Made by a program: the position numbers and the translations under genes. The notes under the pieces are model-generated. The model had not been told where the DNA came from. It did not search any database and saw only the letters and a program-made list of their open reading frames with translations. A stretch of DNA of 64,000 bases from positions 1 through 64,000 of the forward strand of contig JALHOE010000011.1 in assembly GCA_022843175.1 (NCBI GenBank), given 5' to 3'. This DNA is from Deltaproteobacteria bacterium (lineage in GTDB: Bacteria > Myxococcota_A > Polyangia > Polyangiales > JADJMO01). Below, piece after piece: positions 3,673 through 46,886 of this stretch. Each line of letters opens with the position of its first letter. Within the stretch, counting starts at the first letter, position 1.

Positions 3673-3879
3673 TCAGCGCAGCTTTCGCTTCAGCCCGAGG
3701 TCCGCCGCGACGACGATCAAGTAGAGGAGGAACGAGAGCGTGCCCACGCCCTGCCCGATGGTGAGCCCCATCAGCACCGGCAGCGGGCGCGGATCGAGGA
3801 CGCCCCACACCATCAGCCCGAGCCCCAGCAGGGCGAAGACGCTCGCGATCCGCAGGGCCTTCTCGCTGCGAGAAGTCAC
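3673..3879 (-). CDS. small membrane protein next to NapC-type cytochrome
   Basis: A 68-residue protein with two hydrophobic helices (about residues 10-30 and 38-58) and a basic C-terminal tail (LGLKRKLR). The GTG start at 3879 overlaps the TGA stop of the cytochrome gene as GTGA, so the two are probably translated as a coupled pair. I do not recognise the family. Its position suggests an accessory membrane subunit for the tetraheme cytochrome. Confidence 0.6.
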   Translation of the reverse strand: MTSRSEKALRIASVFALLGLGLMVWGVLDPRPLPVLMGLTIGQGVGTLSFLLYLIVVAADLGLKRKLR

Positions 3880-4538
3880 TTGGCCTCCTCCTGGTGCAGA
3901 TCCTTCGGGTCCTTCGTGAGCGGGTGGGCCACGCCGTGGCAACCCTTGCTCGAACAACCAATTTTTCCGGCGATCACGTCCTCCTTCGAGCTCGCGTGAT
4001 CCGGCAACTTGTTCCACCCCGGGGCAGCCGTCGTATGGCACTGCATGCAGTTCACGTTGGGGTACGGCTTCATCAGGTGGATTTTATGCTTCGCCTCCTC
4101 GAGGCTCATGCTCCTAAACTCGGTGGCGTACAGCCACACGTGGCGCATGCCACCGAGCTTGGTGAAGAACGTGCCGAACATGCCGTAGTCTGCGTGGCAC
4201 GTGTAGCAGTTGTCCTTCCCGAAGTAGGGATTGCGCGCGTGGATCGCGGCAAGCGACTTGCTCTTCGGGTCCTCTGAGTCGGACGCATGCGGGATCATCA
4301 CGTGACAAGAACCGCAGAACGATCGATGCTGCGTCGCCTTGTAGCCCTGCACGTTGGCCGACGTGGCCGACGCGATGGGCAGCACGCCCAGGCCCATGAG
4401 CAGCCAGAGCCGCGTCCACTTATGATCGAGCGGCGGACGCCGCACGAGATACACGATGAGGATGGCGGCGGCGCCGGCGGCGCACAGCACGGCGGCCACC
4501 GAGAGCAGGTTGTGCTCGTCGATCGGAAAGTGTTTCAA
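3876..4538 (-). CDS. NapC/NrfH-type membrane tetraheme cytochrome c
   Basis: A 220-residue cytochrome. Two hydrophobic segments (about residues 12-32 and 42-58) are followed by heme sites CGSCH, CYTCH and CMQCH and one wide-spaced CX4CH site (CSSKGCH), four in all. NapC/NirT/NrfH proteins take electrons from quinol in the inner membrane and pass them to periplasmic cytochromes, which fits the multiheme genes next door. The start is TTG at 4538, supported by GGGAG six bases upstream. It is head to head with the barrel gene, with only 18 bases between start codons. The membrane topology and exact family are inferred from layout only. Confidence 0.8.
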   Translation of the reverse strand: MKHFPIDEHNLLSVAAVLCAAGAAAILIVYLVRRPPLDHKWTRLWLLMGLGVLPIASATSANVQGYKATQHRSFCGSCHVMIPHASDSEDPKSKSLAAIHARNPYFGKDNCYTCHADYGMFGTFFTKLGGMRHVWLYATEFRSMSLEEAKHKIHLMKPYPNVNCMQCHTTAAPGWNKLPDHASSKEDVIAGKIGCSSKGCHGVAHPLTKDPKDLHQEEAK

Positions 4539-4556
4539 AGGGCGCTCCCGATCGCG

Positions 4557-5708
4557 ATGGCCATCACGATCGCCTTGGCAGTTCTCATGCCCGCGTCAGC
4601 CGGGGCCGATCCGCTGCGGTTGCGGGGGGACGCGTTCGTCCAGACCCGTTCGCCGGTCGGCCTGTTGGTGCTCCGCGGCGAAGATCGCCTGAAGCCGTGG
4701 ATCGATGTCGAGACCGTCGCATGGGTCGGTGCCCGCCATTCTCCCGACGCCACCGGGGATGTCCAGACTTTGACGGTCCGCCTCCGCGATCCCGCGGGCG
4801 CCGGTGAGGTGCGAGCCGGGCGCTTCGTCTTCGCGTCGGGCGCGATCCGGCCGATCCACCTCGACGGAGTCCGCGCGCTCGGGCGCGCACCGTTCGGCAC
4901 TACGCTCGAGCTGTTCGGCGGCGCGCCGGTAGCCCCTCGCCTCGGCTCGCGGATGTTCGACATGGCGTTCGGCGGCCGGGTCGGCCAGCCGATCGGCACC
5001 GTGGCCGTCCTCGGCGTGTCGTATCTCATGCAGCGAAAAGACGGGCGCATCGCCGACCAGGAGGTCGGGCCCGACCTCGCCGTCTCGCCGACGAAGCACC
5101 TCGACATCGCGGGTCGTTTCGCGATGGACCTCGTCACGCGCGGGCTCAGCGACGCGCTCCTCTCGGTCGGGGCGCACAAGGGTGGAATCCGCGCCGAGGG
5201 CTTCCTCACCCACCGCTCGCCCGCGCGAATCCTGCCCTCCACGTCGATCTTCACCGTCCTCGGCGACGTGCCGAGCACCACCATGGGCGGCAGCTTCCGC
5301 TACAAAATCGCGCCCCGGCTCGATCTCCTCGGCACCGGCGGCGCGATCAACATGGGCAACGACGTCGGCGCCTTCGCCACCGCCCGCGCCACCCTCGCGC
5401 TCGACGACGACGCGCTCGGCACCCTCGGGTTCGAGGTGCGGCGGCAGTCGGTCGCCGGCGCACGTTGGTCCGGCGCGCGCGCGCTCCTCGGCCTCCCGCT
5501 CGGCGGCTCGGTCCGCGTCGCGACCGAGGTCGAGGTGGTCCGTCACGACGACACGCGCTGGTGGCCGTGGGCGCTCCTCGCCCTCGCCTACCGCGCGCCG
5601 CAGGGCTGGGACTTCGTCGCCGGCGTCGAGGCGGTCACCACGCGCGACGAGCGCCGAGAGCTTCACGCGCTCGGCCGTGTCACCTATGCCTTCGAGCGCT
5701 CGAAATGA
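4557..5708 (+). CDS. predicted outer-membrane beta-barrel of the cytochrome locus
   Basis: A 383-residue protein with a signal peptide (start ATG 4557, cleavage probably after the ASAGA region near residue 17). The rest is a run of alternating amphipathic strands with Gly and aromatic turns and a C-terminal strand ending ALGRVTYAFERSK, as in outer-membrane barrels. Its stop overlaps the ATG of the 13-heme gene as ATGA. In porin-cytochrome systems of other bacteria such a barrel sheathes a multiheme wire across the outer membrane; that role is inferred from context. I see no similarity clear enough to name it MtrB or a known porin. Confidence 0.65.
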   Translation: MAITIALAVLMPASAGADPLRLRGDAFVQTRSPVGLLVLRGEDRLKPWIDVETVAWVGARHSPDATGDVQTLTVRLRDPAGAGEVRAGRFVFASGAIRPIHLDGVRALGRAPFGTTLELFGGAPVAPRLGSRMFDMAFGGRVGQPIGTVAVLGVSYLMQRKDGRIADQEVGPDLAVSPTKHLDIAGRFAMDLVTRGLSDALLSVGAHKGGIRAEGFLTHRSPARILPSTSIFTVLGDVPSTTMGGSFRYKIAPRLDLLGTGGAINMGNDVGAFATARATLALDDDALGTLGFEVRRQSVAGARWSGARALLGLPLGGSVRVATEVEVVRHDDTRWWPWALLALAYRAPQGWDFVAGVEAVTTRDERRELHALGRVTYAFERSK

Positions 5709-6742
5709 AGAGGCAGGCGCTCCTCCTCTTGCTCTGCATGAGCGTCGCGGCGTGCGCGGGCATCCTCGGCATCAAGAAGAAGGACCAAACGCGCGCCTTC
5801 GAGCACAAGCGGCACACGACGGCCGGCGTCGCGTGCGTGAGCTGTCACGAGGACATCGACAAGGCGGGGGACGACGGGCCGCTCCACCTGCCGTCCACGG
5901 CCACCTGCACGAGCTGTCACAAGAAGCCCCACGACACGCGCGCGTGCGGCACCTGCCACGGCTCGCCGATGGCGCGCGAGGGCGCCGTCGCGGCGCGCAA
6001 GTTCCTCAAGTTCTCGCACCAGGGCCACCTCGGCACGGTGAAGGGCCAGTGCGTCCCGTGTCACGCGTCGGCCGGCGCGCCCGACGCCGAGACCCTGCGC
6101 CCGCCGATGGCCCAGTGCTTCACGTGTCACAAGCACAAGGACCAGTTCAAGGTCCGCGACTGCGACAGCTGCCACCACGATCTGCCGTCCGAGCACATCA
6201 AGCCGGCGAGCCACGTGGTCCACGAGGGCGACTTCCTCCGCGAGCACGGCGTCCGCGCGGCGTCGGCGCGCGATCTGTGCGCGACGTGCCACAGCCAGCA
6301 GTCGTGCGACGTCTGCCACGGCGCGACGACGCCGATCCTTCCGTGGAAGCTCGCGGTCGAGTCGCCCACGCTCTCGCGGCTCCACCCCGGCAACTTCATG
6401 GCGCGCCACCCGGACGAGGCCAAGGCGCAGCCGGCGCTCTGCGCCACCTGTCACAGCGAGAACAGCTGCCTCGGCTGCCACGTCGATCGCAACGTCGCGG
6501 CCAAGAAGGGCGTGCCGAGCCCGCACCCGCCCGGTTGGGTCCGCGCGGTCGGCGGCGGTCACGGCCCCGCGGCGCGTCTCGATCCGGTGTCGTGCGCCAG
6601 CTGCCACGGCGGCGCCGGTGAGATGCTCTGCGTCGGCTGTCACAAGGTCGGCGCGCCCGGCGGCACCCCGCACGGCCCCGGGTTCTCGAGCACCAAGGAC
6701 AAGACCAAGGACGAGCCGTGCCGGCTCTGCCACCTGCCATGA
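5705..6742 (+). CDS. 13-heme c-type cytochrome lipoprotein
   Basis: A 345-residue lipoprotein with a signal peptide and lipobox-like SVAAC (Cys near 17). I count 13 CXXCH sites, from CVSCH near residue 40 to CRLCH at the very C-terminus, about one per 26 residues. Extra His residues throughout could serve as second axial ligands. It overlaps both neighbours by ATGA-type stop/start joints, so it is made together with the barrel upstream and the 27-heme protein downstream. The likely role is a periplasmic or barrel-inserted electron wire. It is not a close copy of MtrA (which usually has ten hemes) as far as can be seen by eye. Confidence 0.85.
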   Translation: MKRQALLLLLCMSVAACAGILGIKKKDQTRAFEHKRHTTAGVACVSCHEDIDKAGDDGPLHLPSTATCTSCHKKPHDTRACGTCHGSPMAREGAVAARKFLKFSHQGHLGTVKGQCVPCHASAGAPDAETLRPPMAQCFTCHKHKDQFKVRDCDSCHHDLPSEHIKPASHVVHEGDFLREHGVRAASARDLCATCHSQQSCDVCHGATTPILPWKLAVESPTLSRLHPGNFMARHPDEAKAQPALCATCHSENSCLGCHVDRNVAAKKGVPSPHPPGWVRAVGGGHGPAARLDPVSCASCHGGAGEMLCVGCHKVGAPGGTPHGPGFSSTKDKTKDEPCRLCHLP

Positions 6743-8430
6743 CCACCCGCGTCGTCCTCCTCCTCACGCTGATGTTCGGCGCGCTCTTCGCGGCGTGCGA
6801 TCGCGGCGAGGCCCCGGCGCCCACCGAGGTGCCCAAGGCCTGGAGCGGCGCGCGCACGACGCCCGGTCACGTCGCGCACCTCGGAAAGAAGGCCGAGGAC
6901 GGGCACGTCATCGCCTGCGCCGACTGTCACGTCGAGAAGGAGGGCTTCAAGTCCCCCGGCGCCGAGCCGTGCGCCAAGTGCCACGAAGACAAGACGAAGC
7001 GCCACCACAAGGGCAACGACAAGAAGCCCACGACCTGCATCACCTGCCATTCGTTCTCGATGAAGGACTCGGGGCCCGGCGCGCCCACGTGCATCGACTG
7101 CCACGCCAACGAGAAGAAGCACCACGGCACGGCCGACATCTCCTGCACGAGCTGCCACGCGCCGCACGGCGAGCCGAAGTCGATCGACGCCGACTGCACC
7201 TCGTGCCACACCGGCGTCACCGCGCAGCACGGCACCGCGAAGATCGTCGGCACCGCCGACGCCGGCACCATCGCCACGCCCGACGCGGCCGGCGCCGAGC
7301 TCCGGGACGGCGGGGTCACCGCCAACTCCAAGATGTGCAGCACCTGTCACGCGCCGCACACCGGCAAGGCCGAGGCGAAGGACACCTGCGCCACCTGCCA
7401 CAGCAAGACCTCGCCGATCGTCACGCAGAAGGGCCACCCCGCGTGCACCACCTGCCACGCGCCGCACGAGGCCAAGGCGTCGGCGGTGCCGTCGTGCGCG
7501 TCGTGCCACGCGCAGAAGACGGGCATTGGGCTCGTGAAGGGCCACGCCAACTGCACCTCGTGTCACGCGCAGCACGCCCCGCTCGGCGCCGCGGGCGCGT
7601 GCGAGAGCTGCCACAAGAACCACGAGGCGCTCGCCGCGTCGAAGGTCGTCGCGCACGACAAGTGCACGAGCTGCCACGACGTCCACGCGCCGGGCACCAA
7701 GCCCTCGTGCAACAAGTGCCACGACAAGATCCAGCCCAAGCACCCCGGCTTCAAGTCGGGCCCCTGCAGCGGCTGCCACGCGCCGCACCCCGCCACGTCC
7801 TCCGCCTCGGTCGCCACGAGCTGCACCTCGTGCCACGCCAAGATCGCGTCGAGCGACACCAAGGTTCACGGCGGCGTCACCTGCAGCAAGTGCCACCAGA
7901 AGCACGAGTTCAAGTCACCGACGTGCGCCACCTGCCACGCCAAGGTCGCGAGCTCGGTGCACTCCCCCGGCCACGACAACTGCCTCGGCTGCCACGTGTC
8001 GCAACACACGCCGGTCAAGCAGGTCAACTGCGGGAAGTGCCACGCCAAAGAGGCGACGACCGCGCCCAAGGGCCACGCCGCGTGCGGCTCCTGCCACGAC
8101 AACCACGCGGGCAAGGTCATGAAGACCTGCGGGTCGTGCCACGCCGAGAAGTCGAAGACGCAGCACGCCTCGCTCAACTGCAACACCTGCCACCGCCCAC
8201 ACGGCCCGGCCGGCGTCGCGGCGCCGCCGTCGTGCACCTCGTGTCACACCAAGCTGCCCGGCCTCCACACCATGCCGACGCACCAGAAGAGCTGCGAGAG
8301 CTGCCACGGCGGCCACCGCCCCATCTCCTCCGACCGCGCCACGTGCACGAGCACCTGCCACGAGAAGCAGCGCAATCACCAGCCCACGGCGACCACCTGT
8401 AAGGGCTGCCACATCTTCAAGAACCCGTAG
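6739..8430 (+). CDS. 27-heme c-type cytochrome lipoprotein
   Basis: A 563-residue lipoprotein; the signal ends in LFAAC (Cys at about residue 20). It holds 26 CXXCH sites and one CX3CH site (CTSTCH near the C-terminus), about one heme per 20 residues. The repeat unit is roughly CxxCHAPH/CxxCHxxH with Ala, Lys and His linkers. There is no catalytic domain. Such a protein should be an extended, solvent-exposed heme wire, probably on the outer-membrane surface. The ATG at 6739 overlaps the previous TGA. The stop lies in the arm of a hairpin shared with the opposite gene. Confidence 0.88.
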   Translation: MTTRVVLLLTLMFGALFAACDRGEAPAPTEVPKAWSGARTTPGHVAHLGKKAEDGHVIACADCHVEKEGFKSPGAEPCAKCHEDKTKRHHKGNDKKPTTCITCHSFSMKDSGPGAPTCIDCHANEKKHHGTADISCTSCHAPHGEPKSIDADCTSCHTGVTAQHGTAKIVGTADAGTIATPDAAGAELRDGGVTANSKMCSTCHAPHTGKAEAKDTCATCHSKTSPIVTQKGHPACTTCHAPHEAKASAVPSCASCHAQKTGIGLVKGHANCTSCHAQHAPLGAAGACESCHKNHEALAASKVVAHDKCTSCHDVHAPGTKPSCNKCHDKIQPKHPGFKSGPCSGCHAPHPATSSASVATSCTSCHAKIASSDTKVHGGVTCSKCHQKHEFKSPTCATCHAKVASSVHSPGHDNCLGCHVSQHTPVKQVNCGKCHAKEATTAPKGHAACGSCHDNHAGKVMKTCGSCHAEKSKTQHASLNCNTCHRPHGPAGVAAPPSCTSCHTKLPGLHTMPTHQKSCESCHGGHRPISSDRATCTSTCHEKQRNHQPTATTCKGCHIFKNP

Positions 8431-8449
8431 CGCGCGACAGAGCGCGCTA
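8428..8449. terminator. perfect hairpin holding both convergent stop codons
   Basis: An eight-base perfect inverted repeat, TAGCGCGC at 8428-8435 and GCGCGCTA at 8442-8449, with a six-base loop. The first three bases are the TAG of the 27-heme gene. The last three, read on the other strand, are the TAG of the convergent 13-heme gene. It can serve as a two-way terminator or 3' end block. There is no T-run. Confidence 0.65.
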
Positions 8450-9823
8450 CAGGTCGATGTTGCCGTTGACGTGCTTCGCGGACGCCGGGGGCAGCGCGTC
8501 GAGGTGGCAGCCGGCGGTGCCGCACGAAGAGCTCGTGGAGTGCGGGGGCGGCGGCGGGCTCGAGTGGCAGCTGTTGCAGCCGGTGAGCGTCTCGGTCCAC
8601 TTCGGCGTGCGCGCGGTGCCACCGTTGAGGTCGTGGCAGTAAGTGGTGCTGCACGACTTGGCGGTGCTGTCGAAGGTGGGCGTGCGGCCGCCCTTGGCGG
8701 CGAGGCCGACGAGGCGCACCGACAGCGTGCCGCTCGGGTGCTTGGCGTCCGACTCGTGGCACGAGTCGCAGGCGAACGCGTGCTTGGCGTGCGCGCCGGT
8801 CTTCGGGCGCGGATCGTCGCCCGTCCCGTGGCACGCGCCGCACTTGCCGCTGCCGTCGCCGAGGTCGACGCGCCCGTTGGCGTGGAGGAGCGGCGAGTGA
8901 CAGCTCGCGCACGCGCCCGCGGCAGGGTGGGGCGCGGGCGGCGGCGCCGCGTGGCAATCGCCGCACTTCATCTTGCCATCTGTCCACGCGGGGGCGGGAC
9001 GCGCCGCGCCCGGCCCGGCGTGACACTTGGTGGCGCACGCCTTGGTGTTGGGATCGAAGGTGCCGCTGGCGAGGAGCACGTGCACTTGACCGTCGGCGTG
9101 CGTGCCCCCCGGCTTGCCGTCTGCGGGCACCGGATGGCAGGCCTGGCAGGGCACGCCTGCCGGCGTCGTCTCGCTCTTCTCGACGTGCGCGGCGTGCGCG
9201 CCGCCGGTCTTCCCGGGGAAGAAACACGCGTCGCGCGGCGGGTAGACCCGGGCCGCTTTGGCAGAGCCGTGGCACGTGGTGCAGGCGAGGACGCCCTCTT
9301 TCTCCTGGTGACAGCTCGCGCACGAGGTGGCGCCCGGCGCGGCGGAGGGACCGCTCGTGGGCGTCCCCGCGTGGCACTTGCCGCATGCGTCCGCGTTGCC
9401 CGCTTCGAGCATCGGCACGAACCGGCGATCACGGAGAAACTTGCCGTGGAACTCGCTCGAGCGAGGGTCGAGGAACGACGGCGAGTGCACGCCTCCATTC
9501 GAGAACGGCGCGCCGCGCTCGAGCCAACGCGCGAGAACCGTGCGCGCATCTGCAACGGTTGCGTGCGACGGGCGGCCGAGCGCTTGGAGCAGCTTTGGGT
9601 CGCGTCCCGCGGTGAGCGGCTCGCCGTTCACGCATCCGAGCAAGTCCAGGTATGAGCCGACGCGGAAGTTGCCGGCGGGTGCGTCCCCGCTGTGACACGA
9701 GGTGCAGCGCGAGGTGACGAGCGACGCGATTTCCTCGCGGTATGCAGGCTCGAGGGCGGCGCGATCGGGGGTGCAGCCGAGCAGCGCCGAGACCGCGACC
9801 GCGCGCAGGAACTGCAGGCGCAT
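8447..9823 (-). CDS. CX4CH/CXXCH multiheme cytochrome lipoprotein (13 hemes)
   Basis: A 458-residue lipoprotein with lipobox SALLGC (Cys near 16). I count ten CXXCH, one CX3CH (CATKCH) and two CX4CH sites (CSTTYCH, CGTAGCH). The mix of CX4CH and CXXCH, with Pro-rich linkers such as CHSSPPPPPH, matches the Geobacter-type CxxxxCH/CXXCH surface cytochromes. The first 150 residues around a single CTSCH look like a separate domain. It is transcribed against the 27-heme gene and away from the collagen-like cytochrome. The likely role is extracellular or outer-membrane electron transfer. Confidence 0.83.
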   Translation of the reverse strand: MRLQFLRAVAVSALLGCTPDRAALEPAYREEIASLVTSRCTSCHSGDAPAGNFRVGSYLDLLGCVNGEPLTAGRDPKLLQALGRPSHATVADARTVLARWLERGAPFSNGGVHSPSFLDPRSSEFHGKFLRDRRFVPMLEAGNADACGKCHAGTPTSGPSAAPGATSCASCHQEKEGVLACTTCHGSAKAARVYPPRDACFFPGKTGGAHAAHVEKSETTPAGVPCQACHPVPADGKPGGTHADGQVHVLLASGTFDPNTKACATKCHAGPGAARPAPAWTDGKMKCGDCHAAPPPAPHPAAGACASCHSPLLHANGRVDLGDGSGKCGACHGTGDDPRPKTGAHAKHAFACDSCHESDAKHPSGTLSVRLVGLAAKGGRTPTFDSTAKSCSTTYCHDLNGGTARTPKWTETLTGCNSCHSSPPPPPHSTSSSCGTAGCHLDALPPASAKHVNGNIDL

Positions 9824-9870
9824 GAACGCGCTGCGTGTCGAACCTCTCGGTCGCGTCCCCGGTTTCAAGC

Positions 9871-9886
9871 CGGTTCTGCTTTTGCT
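9871..9886 (+). promoter_or_regulatory. sigma-54 promoter before the collagen-like cytochrome
   Basis: CGGTTCTGCTTTTGCT has GG and GC ten bases apart and the TTGCT core of the -12 box. The C of the -12 box is 15 bases before ATG 9900, so the message would have about a 3-nt leader. The same fixed spacing recurs in the stress island. Confidence 0.6.
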
Positions 9887-9899
9887 AAGGGCCTTTGCC

Positions 9900-11219
9900 A
9901 TGCGCATCTTCATCGCTCCCACCATCCTCGCCGTTGCGCTCTTGTCCGCGTGCTCGGGCGACCCCGGGCCCGAGGGTCCGCAGGGACTCGCTGGCCCCGC
10001 AGGCCCGCAGGGTCCGGCAGGCCCGGCAGGCCCCGGTGCCGATGGAGGAGTCGTCGTCATCCCCGACGCGATGGCTGACGGCGCTACCATGACCGGTTGC
10101 ACGTCACCATGCCACGGCTTCGGCAACGTCGTCGACCAATGGCGCTTCAGCGGCCACCAAAAGATCAGCGCCATGGCGGCCGACGAGCCGGTGTGGACGA
10201 GCGCCGCCACCTGCGGCAACTGCCACGCGATCGACGGCGTCGAGCGCCGCGTCGCGGGCACGGTCACGGTTGCGGACGGCGGCGTGTCGTCGAACGTGAA
10301 CAAGGGCCACCTCAACTACAAGCCGGCGGCTGGCGGCGCGTCCGAGGTGGTCTACTCGGGCTTCGGCAAGAACGCGATCATCCACTGCACGACGTGCCAC
10401 GCGTTCACGCCCACCAACGATCCGCACAACACCGGCAAGTACGAGCCCGGCCAGGCGCCGCTCCGTGTCCCCGGCGGCACCGACGACGTGGCCTACATCG
10501 AGAAGAGCGCCGCTGGCTCCACCGAGACGGTCGGCACCTCGGTCAAGTACAAGTCGGGCAACACCTGCGTGTACTGCCACAAGTCGCGCAAGGACATCAC
10601 GTTCTACATCACGGCGAGCAACAAGATCAGCAGCCCGAACTGGGGCCCGCACCTGGGTCCGCAGGCCGACCTCTACTCCGGCCTCGGCGGCTACGCCTTC
10701 GCCGGCGCGAAGTACGGCACCTCGGTCCACACCACCGTCGCCAACGGCTGCGTGTCGTGTCACATGCAGGGCGTCGCCACGAACAAGGGCGTGCCCGACC
10801 ACACCATGCAGCCCGCCCTCGCGTACTGCAAGACGTGCCACACCACGTACACCGGCACGAGCTACAACGTGCAGTCCGGTCAGTCGGCGGTGCGTTTGGC
10901 GCTCACCGAGCTGCAGGCGGCGCTCAACGCCAAGGGGCTGCTCACCCGCTCCGAGGCCAAGCCCTACCAGCCGCTCAGCCCCGAGGAGCTCGCCGACAGC
11001 AACTTCGCGCTCGATAGGACCCGCCCCGGCAGCAACCCGGACGGCACCGATCAGACGATCGACGCGGCCACGGCCGGCGCGGTCTACAACTATCTAATCA
11101 TCGCCCGCGGCGGCGACTTCGGCGTCCACAACCCGACGTACACCAAGCAGCTGCTCTGGGACTCGATCAAGCAGATCAAGGGCACCAACCCGACGAGCAT
11201 GACGAGCCGCCCCGAGTGA
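9900..11219 (+). CDS. collagen-like hexaheme cytochrome lipoprotein
   Basis: A 439-residue lipoprotein; lipobox LLSAC (Cys near 19). Directly after the Cys comes a Gly-X-Y stretch of about nine triplets, rich in GPA, GPQ and GPE, able to form a collagen-type triple helix. Then come one CX3CH (CTSPCH) and five CXXCH sites (CGNCH, CTTCH, CVYCH, CVSCH, CKTCH), all within about the first 320 residues. The C-terminal 120 residues have no heme site. The middle resembles decaheme/hexaheme redox domains only loosely. Its promoter is separate from that of the barrel operon and looks sigma-54 dependent. The product may be a trimeric surface cytochrome (inference). Confidence 0.82.
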   Translation: MRIFIAPTILAVALLSACSGDPGPEGPQGLAGPAGPQGPAGPAGPGADGGVVVIPDAMADGATMTGCTSPCHGFGNVVDQWRFSGHQKISAMAADEPVWTSAATCGNCHAIDGVERRVAGTVTVADGGVSSNVNKGHLNYKPAAGGASEVVYSGFGKNAIIHCTTCHAFTPTNDPHNTGKYEPGQAPLRVPGGTDDVAYIEKSAAGSTETVGTSVKYKSGNTCVYCHKSRKDITFYITASNKISSPNWGPHLGPQADLYSGLGGYAFAGAKYGTSVHTTVANGCVSCHMQGVATNKGVPDHTMQPALAYCKTCHTTYTGTSYNVQSGQSAVRLALTELQAALNAKGLLTRSEAKPYQPLSPEELADSNFALDRTRPGSNPDGTDQTIDAATAGAVYNYLIIARGGDFGVHNPTYTKQLLWDSIKQIKGTNPTSMTSRPE

Positions 11220-11896
11220 TGGACAAGAAGGTCGCCGTGCTGCTCGCCGTCATCGGCGGCGCAGCAGTCTTCGCCGCCACGCGCACGCGCGAGCCGACGC
11301 CGCAGATCACCCCTGCGGCGCCCGAGCCCGCGCCGAGCGTGGCCGTCCCCGCGGGCTCGCTGCCCCCGGGTCACCCGCCGATGGGCGATCTACCGAGCGG
11401 GCATCCGCCCATCGGCAAGACCGGCGGTCACGGCGGCGGCGGTAGCGGCCCCACCATGGCCAAGCCCGACGCGTCGATCGAGTGGACGATGCCTCCGCGC
11501 TGGGAGGCCGTGCCGCACATGAGCACGATGCGCATCGTCACCTACCGGGTGCCGAAGGTGTTCGGCGACGTCGAGGACCCGGAGGTCTCGGTCACCCGCG
11601 CCGGCGGCGACATCGAGCAGAACGCCACGCGTTGGATCCAGCAGTTCGACGAGCCGAGCCGCAAGTCCGCCAAGCGCTCCATCAAGACGATCGGCGCCCT
11701 CCAGGTGCACGTCGTCGAGGTCGAGGGCGGCTACACCTCCATGAAGGGCGAGGTCGAGAACGACTGGGCGATGATCGGCGCGATCGTCGACACGCCCAAC
11801 GGCTCGCACTTCTTCAAGCTCACCGGCCCGAAGAAGAGCGTCGCCAACGCGAAGGCGGAGATGGACGCGCTGATCGCGTCCATCAAATCCAAGTAG
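11219..11896 (+). CDS. exported protein of unknown function
   Basis: A 225-residue protein with an N-terminal hydrophobic signal or anchor (KVAVLLAVIGGAAVFA), a Pro/Gly/His-rich linker to about residue 75, and a globular domain of about 140 residues beginning EWTMPPRWE and containing repeated charged amphipathic segments. I recognise no catalytic motif. The ATG overlaps the previous stop (TGATG), so it is co-translated with the hexaheme cytochrome. It may be an envelope partner of that protein. Its TAG is the first part of a 24-base hairpin. Confidence 0.7.
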   Translation: MDKKVAVLLAVIGGAAVFAATRTREPTPQITPAAPEPAPSVAVPAGSLPPGHPPMGDLPSGHPPIGKTGGHGGGGSGPTMAKPDASIEWTMPPRWEAVPHMSTMRIVTYRVPKVFGDVEDPEVSVTRAGGDIEQNATRWIQQFDEPSRKSAKRSIKTIGALQVHVVEVEGGYTSMKGEVENDWAMIGAIVDTPNGSHFFKLTGPKKSVANAKAEMDALIASIKSK

Positions 11897-42812: not shown

Positions 42813-43993
42813 GTGCGCTCGGGAGGCGGCGTGACCACGCGGAGCAGCAACTGGCCGCCGTGAACGTCGAACAGCTCGTCGCCGATGAGGAGCTGGATCG
42901 TGCCCTCGACGCGCAGATCGCCGAGGATCACCGACTGACCACGCGGGAGCTTGAGCTCGAGCCAGCCGTCGGCGGTGTTCTCGATCGTCGCGCGCCGCGG
43001 GCCGAGCTCGATCGGTCCGAGCGGGAGCCACACCACCCGGCCGGGGAGCTCGACGATGAGGCCGCCGGTGTCGGCGGGGCGGACCTTGAGCGGCAGCGCG
43101 TTGCCGATGAGCAGGTCGAGGCCGATGCCGACCGGCAGCGTCTCGACGCGCGCGCCGCGGAGCGTGGTGCCGTTCTTTCCGCCGAGATCGCGCACGACCG
43201 GATCGGCGCCGTCGGGTCGCTCGAACTCGAGGTGGCGCCGCGACACCACCGGCGCCGGCACGCGCAGATCGCAGTCGCTGCGGCCGAGCACCACCGGGTT
43301 GCCGGGGACCAGCTCCATCACCCGACTGTCGACGGAGACGAACGGCTGCTGCGGCCGGCGCGCGAGCAAACCCGAGAGCAGCGCGCGCAGGTCCTCGACC
43401 TCTTCTTCGGCGAGCGCGTTGCGCAGGAGGTCGTGCGCGTCCCTTCGGCGGCCAATCGCGATGAGATCGCGCGCCTCTTCGAAGCGCATCGCGCGGCGCA
43501 CCTTGGACTCCTCGGCGCGGCGCTGGCGGCTGACGGCCTCTTCGAGCTTGCCGACCGCGCCGGCGTCGGCGAGCGCGGCGATTTCGCCGTCCAGATCGCC
43601 GGCCGCACGGAGCGCCCGCGCGGCGAGCTCGTTCTCGCCGAGCTCACGCAACGCGCGCCCCGCCTCGACGAGCTCGCGGCGACGGATCGCGGGATCGAGG
43701 CCGCCCGCCTCGGCGCGGTCGAGGATGAACTGCGCGCGGGCCTTCCACGCTTGCTGACGCGCCGGATCGCCGCGCGGGGCGAGCGCGGTGGCCTGCGCGA
43801 GGAGGAGCGCGCGCCGGTGTGGCTCGAGCTCACCCTGCGCCCGCAGCAACATCACGCGCACGGCGTCGGCGTAGCGACCGGCCTGGCTGTACGCGGCGCA
43901 CGCCGTCTCGAGGTCGCCACGTTGCTCGGCGCCGCGCGCCGTCTTCACGGCCTCGGGCGAGAACCACGTTCGCAGGCGCGTCGAGAGCGACAT
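42809..43993 (-). CDS. TPR-FHA protein
   Basis: A 394-residue protein. Residues 1-215 are Ala/Arg-rich helical repeats of TPR type. Residues 220-310 form an FHA domain (VVLGRSDCDLRV, VVSRRHLEFE, DLGGKNGTTLRG). The last 80 residues are beta-rich (IELGPRRATIENT, LPRGQSVILGDLRVEG) and may be a second, worn FHA-like domain. It should bind a phosphorylated partner, perhaps the neighbouring kinase. It is co-translated with that gene. Confidence 0.83.
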   Translation of the reverse strand: MSLSTRLRTWFSPEAVKTARGAEQRGDLETACAAYSQAGRYADAVRVMLLRAQGELEPHRRALLLAQATALAPRGDPARQQAWKARAQFILDRAEAGGLDPAIRRRELVEAGRALRELGENELAARALRAAGDLDGEIAALADAGAVGKLEEAVSRQRRAEESKVRRAMRFEEARDLIAIGRRRDAHDLLRNALAEEEVEDLRALLSGLLARRPQQPFVSVDSRVMELVPGNPVVLGRSDCDLRVPAPVVSRRHLEFERPDGADPVVRDLGGKNGTTLRGARVETLPVGIGLDLLIGNALPLKVRPADTGGLIVELPGRVVWLPLGPIELGPRRATIENTADGWLELKLPRGQSVILGDLRVEGTIQLLIGDELFDVHGGQLLLRVVTPPPERT

Positions 43994-44011
43994 CGTTGCG
44001 GGGAGGCAAGG

Positions 44012-45148
44012 CTATCGCGATGCGCGATGCGCGAACAGGCCGAGCGCGACGAGCACGGCCGTGACGCCGACGAACAGGCCCGTGTGCGCTCGTTTACCCG
44101 GGTGTTTCTCTGATCGAGCAAGCCCGATCGGCCCGATGCGAGGCAGCTTTTCGAAGGGCAGAGCGCTCGCCTCGGCGAGCGCCGCCGAGCCCTCCTGGGC
44201 GAACCGGACGTCGGGATGGTTCACCCGGAGGAGGTCGTCGATGCGCGGACAGCCGCTCTCGGCCTCGTCGAGGAGGCCGGTCGCCGACAGCTCTCCGAGC
44301 GGGGTGGGCCAGCGGGCGGGCATGGCCTGCTCGCCGCGCACGCAGGTGGTGAAGCCCCGAAGGATGGCGGTCGCGGTGCGCTGGCCGATCGCCGAGAACA
44401 GCGGCTCGCGCGAGAGGGCAGCCGCCCGCGCGGCGCGCGAGATCTCACCGAGCCGCGCGAGCGCCGAGGACGCGTCGCCCGCGGTCGCCACGGCGAGGGG
44501 CAGATCGGAGAGCAGCACGGAGAGCGCGTCGACGCCGCCCCGCGCGAGGGCCCGGCCGCGCTCGGCCTCGGTCGCCACGGTGACCTCGCCGCCCATGATC
44601 GGCCCGCCGTCCACGATCAGCACCGGCACCGGCGCCCTGCCGTCGAGCTGGAAGGTCAGCGCGGCGGGCTCGTGGTCCCGAGTGGGATCGACGTTGACCA
44701 CGATGGGCGCGCCGGTCTCGATCCACGTCGCGAGGCCGGCGACGCGGTGCGGCCCCCACGTGCTGCGGGTCGAGAGCGCGACGCGCACGCGGCCCGCCGT
44801 GACGGGGACGTGCGCCGGGTTGGTGGTGAGCGGCGCGGCGATGAAGCGATCGCCCCGCACGACCGCGACGAAGCGCACGGTGCCCGCCTTCGTGATCTCG
44901 GCCGTGACGCGGCCCCGCGGACCGCCGAGGGTCAGCGGCTTGTCGTCGAGCTCGATGCGAAAGGCGATCAGCTCGGGGGGCGCCCTCCCCTCTTCGCGGG
45001 CGCGGAGCACTCCGCCGGCATCGACGGCGCACGGCGCGCCCGAGACGCGCGCGGTGAGCGCGACGATGGCCACGCCGCGACCGACGTCGACGAAGGTGGT
45101 CTCGTTCGCGATCGTGCACGGCGGCAGCGACATGGCGAGGACACCCAT
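44012..45148 (-). CDS. membrane-anchored exported protein of unknown function
   Basis: A 378-residue protein. It has a weak N-terminal signal (MGVLAMSLPPCTIA), a long beta-rich outer part with no motif I recognise (TFVDVGRGVAIVALTARV, VPVTAGRVRVALS), and a C-terminal helix (GLFVGVTAVLVALGLFA). TTG 45172 is an alternative start that gives a longer signal peptide. It runs into the FHA-kinase genes with an 18-base gap. It is tightly divergent from the metallophosphatase cytochrome. Confidence 0.6.
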   Translation of the reverse strand: MGVLAMSLPPCTIANETTFVDVGRGVAIVALTARVSGAPCAVDAGGVLRAREEGRAPPELIAFRIELDDKPLTLGGPRGRVTAEITKAGTVRFVAVVRGDRFIAAPLTTNPAHVPVTAGRVRVALSTRSTWGPHRVAGLATWIETGAPIVVNVDPTRDHEPAALTFQLDGRAPVPVLIVDGGPIMGGEVTVATEAERGRALARGGVDALSVLLSDLPLAVATAGDASSALARLGEISRAARAAALSREPLFSAIGQRTATAILRGFTTCVRGEQAMPARWPTPLGELSATGLLDEAESGCPRIDDLLRVNHPDVRFAQEGSAALAEASALPFEKLPRIGPIGLARSEKHPGKRAHTGLFVGVTAVLVALGLFAHRASR

Positions 45149-45185
45149 GGACAGAAGCGCGCCGCGGGACAAGACTCCGCCCGGA

Positions 45186-46886
45186 ATGCCCCCCCGGACG
45201 CTCGCCCGAGGACCGCGCGCCGCGTTCGCCGTCGCGCTCTCGACCTTCGCGTTGCTCAGCGCCTGCAACGGCTGCCGGGCAGGCGCGGGCAAGGGCGACG
45301 GCGGCCCCGCGGTCTCCGAGTCCGCCGCGCCCACGCTGCGCGTCTACGTCCTTTCCGATCTCGCCGGCGCGCTCGAGCCCTGCGGCTGCCAGAAGGACAT
45401 GCTCGGCGGCGTCGACCACTTCGGCGCGCTCGTCGAGAAAGAGCGCTCCAAGGCCAAGGACTCGGTGGTCGTGAGCGTCGGCCCCACCTTCTTCATGGAC
45501 GAGGTGATCAAGCCCGAGCGCCTCGAGCAGGAGACGTGGAAGGCCGAGGCGATCGCCGCGGGCCTCAAGCCGTCGGGGCTCATCGCGTTCACGCCCGGCA
45601 AGAACGACTGGGCCGCGGGCGCGCCGGTCCTCTCCAAGCTCCGCGAGGCGTGCGGCGCCCCGCTCATCGCGGCGAACGTCTCGGGCGAGGCGAGCGCGGG
45701 CGCCGTCGCGCAGTCGATCAAGGAGATCGGCGGCGTGAAGGTCGCCTTCCTCGGCGTCTCGCTGCCGAAGTCGAGCAAGGGCAGCATCGAGGGCCTCACC
45801 GTCGACGACGCCGCCAAGGCGCTCTCGGCGGCGGCGAAGAAGGCTCGGAAGGACGGCGCGCGAATCGTCATCGGCACCGCGGCGCTCGAGCGCGGCGACG
45901 CCATCCGCGCCGCCGAGGCCGCGCCCGAGCTCGACGTGCTCGCCATCGGCTCGCCCTACGCCGAGGGCGAGGCGAACAGCACGCCCAAGCCGCCGCGCTT
46001 CGTCGGTCCGGTGCTCGTGGTGCAGGCGTCCAATCACCTCACCCGCGTCGCGGTCGTCGATCTGTTCGTCCGCGGCGACGGCCGCTTCGCCGACGGCAGC
46101 GGCCTCGCGCACGCCGCCGAGGTCACCGACCTCGAGACCCAGATCGACGATCTGCAGAAGCGTATCGCCAACTGGGAGAAGGACCCGGCGGTGCCCAAGA
46201 GCGATCTCGACGCGCAGAAGAAGCGCCTCGAGGTCATGCGCGACAAGCTGGCGAAGGCCAAGGTGCCGCCGGCCACGCCCACCGGCTCGTTCCTTCGCTA
46301 CGAGCTGGTCGAGGTGCGCGACAAGCTCGGCCGCGAGAAGACCGCGCACGACGCGATGAAGGCCTACTACACGCGCGTCAACGCGTTCAACAAGGACAAG
46401 TTCAAGGACAAGAAGGCGCCGCCGCCGCCCAAGGGCGAGCCCTTCTTCGTGGGGCAGGAGTCGTGCACGCCCTGCCACACCGCCACCGTCGACGTGTGGA
46501 AGAAGACGGGCCACTCGCACGCCTACAAGACGCTCGTCGAAGAGTCGAAGGAGTTCAACCTCGACTGCGTCGGCTGCCACGTCACCGGCTACGACAAACC
46601 GGGCGGCTCCACGGTGACCGACGTCGTGTCGCCGAACCTCAAGGACGTGCAGTGCGAGTCGTGTCACGGCGGCGGCAGCGAGCACGTCAAGGACCCGACG
46701 ATCGCGATGCCGATCAGCGATCCAGGCGAGAACGTCTGCATCGGCTGCCACCACCCGCCGCACACCGACGTGTTCGACTACAAGGCGCGCAAGGACAAGG
46801 TCCTCGGCCCCGGCCACGGCAAGCCCGGCGCGCAACCGAACAACGACCCGCCCAAGGGCTGGAAACCGCCGAAGCCGCGGTTTTAG
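45186..46886 (+). CDS. metallophosphatase-like, tetraheme cytochrome lipoprotein
   Basis: A 566-residue lipoprotein (lipobox LLSAC, Cys near 27). Residues 50-290 resemble the calcineurin-like 5'-nucleotidase fold (YVLSDLAGALEPCGC, LGGVDHFGALVEKE, GKNDWAAG), but several metal-ligand motifs are weak. A coiled coil (TDLETQIDDLQKRIANWEK) leads to a cytochrome c554-like domain with CTPCH, CVGCH, CESCH and CIGCH. Similar two-part proteins occur in other multiheme-rich bacteria. The likely place is the periplasm or cell surface. A hexamer tract begins just after the stop. Confidence 0.8.
   Translation: MPPRTLARGPRAAFAVALSTFALLSACNGCRAGAGKGDGGPAVSESAAPTLRVYVLSDLAGALEPCGCQKDMLGGVDHFGALVEKERSKAKDSVVVSVGPTFFMDEVIKPERLEQETWKAEAIAAGLKPSGLIAFTPGKNDWAAGAPVLSKLREACGAPLIAANVSGEASAGAVAQSIKEIGGVKVAFLGVSLPKSSKGSIEGLTVDDAAKALSAAAKKARKDGARIVIGTAALERGDAIRAAEAAPELDVLAIGSPYAEGEANSTPKPPRFVGPVLVVQASNHLTRVAVVDLFVRGDGRFADGSGLAHAAEVTDLETQIDDLQKRIANWEKDPAVPKSDLDAQKKRLEVMRDKLAKAKVPPATPTGSFLRYELVEVRDKLGREKTAHDAMKAYYTRVNAFNKDKFKDKKAPPPPKGEPFFVGQESCTPCHTATVDVWKKTGHSHAYKTLVEESKEFNLDCVGCHVTGYDKPGGSTVTDVVSPNLKDVQCESCHGGGSEHVKDPTIAMPISDPGENVCIGCHHPPHTDVFDYKARKDKVLGPGHGKPGAQPNNDPPKGWKPPKPRF

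Follow-up and report, generated by a model that had tools for sequence, protein, structure and literature searches.

Polyangia-type myxobacteria are best known as aerobic predators of the soil, and the question raised by this locus is whether one of them carries a porin-cytochrome conduit, through which electrons would pass from the inner membrane to an acceptor outside the cell. Six-frame counting of heme motifs across the window (the whole 64,000-nucleotide stretch of DNA that was analysed) placed the multiheme frames between 3.9 and 11.2 kb, plus one four-heme frame at 43.9 kb. The latter (43875-46886, plus strand) has a tetraheme domain of the c554 type (PF13435), and its C-terminal half is similar to UshA-like (seleno)proteins (NF041198, 226 bits, below the cutoff of 275).

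The preliminary description had counted 63 heme motifs in the main cluster, and the recount arrived at the same figure: 4+13+27+13+6 over five c-type cytochromes (designated A4, C13, D27, E13 and F6col), made up of 57 CxxCH and six CX3-4CH sites. Residue shuffles gave a mean of 0.01-0.57 CxxCH per protein, with a maximum of 4 in 2000, and the histidines present cover those needed for bis-His ligation in each of the five (30/26, 59/54 in D27, 27/26, 14/12 and 16/8, present/needed). Beside these cytochromes stand a barrel gene, B, and a small gene, H68; the models of six genes were set by codon-position GC bias together with homologues in the same frame. A further open frame (11216-11896, plus strand; 226 aa, secreted-looking) overlaps the end of F6col in a TGATG. 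Its membership in the set is doubtful: it gave no Pfam or NCBIfam match above cutoff and no homologue at ≥45 bits in the related clusters compared.

The barrel and the 13-heme lipoprotein

Gene B (4557-5708, plus strand) encodes a heme-free protein of 383 aa, and the barrel proposed from its sequence does model as one: AlphaFold2, run on a 47-row alignment, gave an outer-membrane barrel of 22 strands (pLDDT 86.1, pTM 0.78). Foldseek groups the model with large outer-membrane barrels (usher pores, AlgE and Occ porins) at a query TM of ~0.3-0.6. Nothing fitting was found for the window sequence in Pfam, NCBIfam or the PDB sequences, nor for the 47-member alignment in Pfam and the PDB sequences; the MtrB_PioB family (PF11854) in particular was not matched by the window protein at E up to 1 or by any of the 47 homologues at E up to 0.1. 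From the model, B is predicted to be an outer-membrane beta-barrel and the scaffold of the conduit. By standard barrel geometry the backbone radius is ~20 A for 22 strands vs ~24 A for 26, and a slim heme rod could fit inside.

The next gene, C13 (5705-6742, plus strand; 345 aa, 13 CxxCH), is bound closely to the barrel gene. In the 41 loci with both gene ends placed it starts between -6 and +132 bp from the barrel end, and the order, barrel first and C13 second, is constant wherever sequence is available. All 13 heme sites, the lipobox Cys17, Ala18 and L21-G22 are invariant in 45 aligned C13 rows. In-frame stops within C13 matches of some genomes are taken to be the ends of the genes themselves and not recoding, as the coordinates bore out at L112, the one case checked. 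Among PDB sequences the C13 profile matched 3OV0 best (E 1.3e-16, partial and by heme repeat only), and a chain of the MtrCAB entry (6r2q_A) was matched at E 8e-4 over a part only. With the MtrA/DmsE-type decaheme model TIGR03508 the score was 22 bits, below the cutoff of 192. The structure model of C13 alone is weak (pLDDT 66.5), and its fold search against the PDB returned one non-significant match. Taken from its sequence and gene context, C13 appears to be the core cytochrome of the conduit, lipid-anchored and held in B.

B, C13 and the following D27 are probably co-translated, since four-base overlaps occur at both junctions (B/C13 and C13/D27). On the other side, A4 and B are divergent with start codons 18 bp apart (4539-4556), so that one of their promoters, if not both, must be located within the opposite gene; a promoter scan of the region gave a single weak match.

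The accompanying cytochromes

A4 (3876-4538, minus strand) has four hemes, three at CxxCH and one at CX4CH, and was earlier taken for an inner-membrane tetraheme. This assignment was borne out by its match to the NapC/NirT family (PF03264, 45 bits, cutoff 24.1) and by a heme-1 CxxCHxM (C75, C78, H79, M81), which, like the CX4CH site of the fourth heme, is kept in ≥95% of 39 homologues. The protein has an extra N-terminal transmembrane helix and is predicted to be a NapC/NirT-type quinol dehydrogenase with a CymA/NrfH-like role. H68 (3673..3879, minus strand; 68 aa with two hydrophobic segments) is the neighbour of the A4 homologue at most of the related loci, and the alignment of 39 homologues shows conserved W25, GQ (42-43), GT (46-47) and D60. 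It is a probable small inner-membrane partner of A4, perhaps acting at the quinone site or in assembly.

D27 (6739-8430, plus strand; 26 CxxCH and one CX3CH) is built of c7/c3-like repeats and has 18.7 residues per heme, counted from the first heme. Its description as a lipoprotein stands for the window sequence, in which, as in the relative L050, a lipobox with Asp at +2 is present; it does not extend to most homologues, ~28 of 41 having instead an N-terminal hydrophobic helix (~18 residues) and no lipobox, and ~13 of 41 being lipoproteins with various +2 residues. These helices were read from the sequence and are taken to be uncleaved. Because the majority of homologues have a transmembrane helix of this kind, D27 probably has its tether in the inner membrane, which would make it a periplasmic bridge and not an outer-membrane subunit. 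Asp+2 as sole proof of retention in the inner membrane was dropped: in Myxococcus xanthus the inner-membrane lipoproteins use Lys at +2, and Ala at +7 marks lipoproteins of the matrix (PMC3222651). Lipoproteins of this group do not follow the E. coli sorting rules, so the lipobox residues are an uncertain guide to the membrane in which a protein resides.

Lipoboxes are also present on C13, E13 and F6col. E13 (8447-9823, minus strand; 10 CxxCH and three CX3-4CH) matches the CxxxxCH/CxxCH domain TIGR01904 (67 bits, cutoff 27), its homologues adjoin the barrel in most loci, and it is a probable outer-membrane or surface cytochrome. In F6col (9900-11219, plus strand) five CxxCH and one CX3CH follow a lipobox and GXX repeats that form a collagen-like stalk (CSGDPGPEGPQGLAGPAGPQGPAGPAGPG). 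Orthologues were found at L049, L050, L053, L054, L055, L062 and other loci, and collagen-stalked cytochromes with 8 or 10 hemes occupy the same cluster elsewhere; F6col is likewise a probable surface cytochrome. In 40 multiheme frames at 34 loci, F6col included, the lipid Cys is followed immediately by a collagen-like run of GXX, and such stalks (L063-L091, L108, L115, L116) also occur on decahemes of the OmcA/MtrC family. We know of no description of a collagen-like stalk on a multiheme surface cytochrome, and our literature search found no paper that pairs 'collagen-like' with 'multiheme cytochrome'.

The clusters of relatives carry lipoproteins with 8-10 hemes, eight of which were tested: six belong to the OmcA/MtrC family TIGR03507 (320-440 bits, cutoff 209) with MtrC/MtrF domains, and the other two, octahemes, do not. 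An OmcA/MtrC-family cytochrome is not found in the window cluster. The TIGR03507 search of the window genome gave no match, but its positive control was likewise silent, and absence from the genome is not proven.

Distribution among Myxococcota and a second copy

Barrel homologues were found in 13 of 57 near genomes and in 49 named loci, nearly all from Myxococcota; their titles are nearly all Myxococcales, Polyangiaceae, Labilithrix, Nannocystis, Kofleriaceae, Sandaracinaceae and deltaproteobacterium MAGs. The cluster is also present in the complete genome of a cultured organism, Minicystis rosea DSM 24000 (L064), which makes the conduit idea directly testable. Among 284 sampled genomes of the phylum the barrel profile matches 44, and the C13 profile matches 115 at threshold, the weaker of which may be other multiheme proteins. 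Within the window's class most loci have D27, E13, A4 and H68 along with the barrel-C13 pair. Families farther away show a core reduced to an E13-like protein, the barrel and C13, the adjacency of the last two persisting in families without D27 or A4; in some distant families no barrel matching the profile was seen beside C13, and one single-contig, 5.0-Mb genome (G063) has only a seven-heme partial match, without a barrel. From these sequence matches, the putative conduit set is a phylum-wide module, not an oddity of one genome.

The same genome contains a second, diverged copy of the conduit genes (contig C9, L030 31000-50900, and L120), with its F6col homologue ~17 kb away. Identities between the two copies are 87% for A4, 86% for C13 and 84% for B, against 68% for D27, 67-68% for E13 and 67% for F6col. 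In Geobacter conduits the outer-surface components vary more than the periplasmic ones (PMC6148476), a pattern that the second copy resembles in that D27, E13 and F6col are less conserved than A4, B and C13.

A candidate conduit and its known counterparts

The layout fits the way a porin-cytochrome conduit is defined for Geobacter (PMC6148476), and the claim that such an arrangement exists in a Myxococcota genome holds: the barrel stands beside a multiheme gene in 41 loci, with outer-surface-type cytochromes linked in relatives. We consider it likely that the cluster encodes a porin-cytochrome type conduit of Myxococcota that carries electrons from the inner membrane outward to an acceptor. 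A4, with its small partner H68, would oxidise menaquinol at the inner membrane. D27 would receive the electrons and, as a heme-dense rod fixed to that membrane, bridge the periplasm. Next would come C13, lipid-anchored and held in the 22-strand B, as the passage across the outer membrane. From it the electrons would reach lipoproteins of the cell surface, which are E13 and the collagen-stalked F6col in this cluster and include OmcA/MtrC-family decahemes and an octaheme in relatives. The final acceptor outside may be Fe(III)/Mn(IV) oxides, humics or another cell. The genes and their order, the heme motifs, the modelled barrel, the conservation of the family and the OmcA/MtrC membership of proteins in relatives are observations; we infer that a complex is formed, which lipoproteins reach the surface, that D27 is the bridge, that the direction is outward, and the nature of the acceptor. 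A more specific version, in which one module encodes a continuous path, an inner-membrane protein of ~23-34 hemes spans the periplasm and docks directly on C13 in B with no diffusible carrier, and the stalks keep the surface cytochromes clear of the membrane, perhaps as trimers, is tentative, and we lean slightly against it.

The preliminary description had also stated that the subunit sizes and heme counts correspond neither to Mtr nor to known Geobacter sets. Profile searches agree: PF11854 is absent from B, C13 stays below the TIGR03508 cutoff, and no NCBIfam Ext model scored above cutoff. Its remark that extracellular electron transfer is rarely described in this group needs one qualification: a two-gene Pcc cluster has been published for Anaeromyxobacter, which belongs to this phylum. 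This pair, Pcc group IV, consists of a porin and a 12/14-heme cytochrome of 338-344 aa (Shi et al. 2014, PMC4245776) and is the closest published precedent, likened here by size and heme count only: in both cases a porin gene adjoins a cytochrome of ~340 aa with 12-14 hemes. The published pair includes no gene for a cytochrome of the outer membrane, and its own cytochrome is described as periplasmic (PMC4245776), whereas C13 is a lipoprotein and the window cluster has tetraheme, 27-heme and surface genes. No description of Polyangia or Myxococcota conduits beyond this was found in the literature; the surveys consulted make no mention of the group in the main text, and a prior detection may stand in a supplementary table.

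The Geobacter conduits ExtABCD, ExtEFG and OmbB-OmaB-OmcB combine a barrel, a multiheme cytochrome and redox lipoproteins (PMC6148476). The same kinds of component are seen here, including the C4xCH/CxxCH domain of E13, and ExtA and ExtG, with 12 hemes, and ExtB and ExtE, with 18 and 21 predicted strands (PMC6148476), are comparable. Heme counts and sizes differ, however, and here the inner-membrane tetraheme and 27-heme genes are part of the cluster. With the Shewanella system of MtrCAB/OmcA and CymA the likeness lies in a NapC-type tetraheme, a barrel, a conduit cytochrome and a surface decaheme, the relatives of the window cluster sharing true OmcA/MtrC-family proteins with it; the differences are that B is not MtrB_PioB and has 22 vs 26 strands, and that C13 is not of the DmsE/MtrA type, having 13 hemes and a lipid anchor. 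MtrA, ExtA and OmaB are all described as periplasmic (PMC6148476, PMC4245776), unlike a C13 that is lipid-anchored. Nanowire cytochromes of the GSU1996 type (PDB 3OV0) have c7-type tandem heme repeats in common with C13 but no barrel partner. By sequence comparison, then, what is new is a predicted barrel outside the Pfam, NCBIfam and PDB sequence families and a putative core cytochrome that is a lipoprotein.

The genome encodes cytochrome c assembly genes and several heme-copper oxidases, and because of the latter the organism is not an obligate metal respirer. Inward electron flow is also possible through NapC-type proteins and porin-cytochrome pairs, as in the Mto/Pio systems. Operated in this way, the same conduit would take electrons from Fe(II), reduced humics or cells to quinone or to the oxidases, several of which are available as sinks; inward operation of such conduits is also treated in PMC12016527. 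Mtr clusters for Fe(II) oxidation are often without OmcA/MtrC-family surface cytochromes (PMC4245776). The relatives' clusters do carry these proteins, which are typical of outward respiration, and we regard the inward direction as unlikely.

Another reading is a reductase at the cell surface that serves a single soluble substrate, comparable to the DMSO-reductase type of conduit, with F6col or the octaheme as its catalytic head. Weak NrfH/C552-like regions in F6col and the variation of head genes among loci would agree with this, but the five window cytochromes have no CxxCK catalytic heme and the cluster showed neither a molybdopterin partner nor one resembling NrfA, which leaves it very improbable. 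That there is no conduit, and that an ordinary porin lies beside periplasmic cytochromes for internal electron storage or detoxification, is scarcely credible: D27 is probably periplasmic and the surface location of the lipoproteins is only predicted, but barrel and C13 are adjacent in every measured locus, across orders and classes, and OmcA/MtrC-family lipoproteins recur beside them.

If the outward conduit is real, many Polyangia-type myxobacteria would be capable of extracellular electron transfer, not Anaeromyxobacter alone. It would add a barrel family without a Pfam or PDB entry, a lipid-anchored conduit cytochrome and an apparent genetically encoded periplasmic bridge, the last of which bears on how electrons cross the periplasm.

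A genome-wide count of the CxxCH pattern was discarded as a heme census, its 548 matches vs 414 in the reversed control being too noisy. Individual multiheme frames elsewhere in the genome include a 13-heme frame of 504 aa (L044, contig C46:2410-3924), a pentaheme of 255 aa with a heme-copper oxidase gene ~10 kb away (L045, contig C149:8820-9587) and a 533-aa frame with 6-7 hemes (L046, contig C196:10792-12393).
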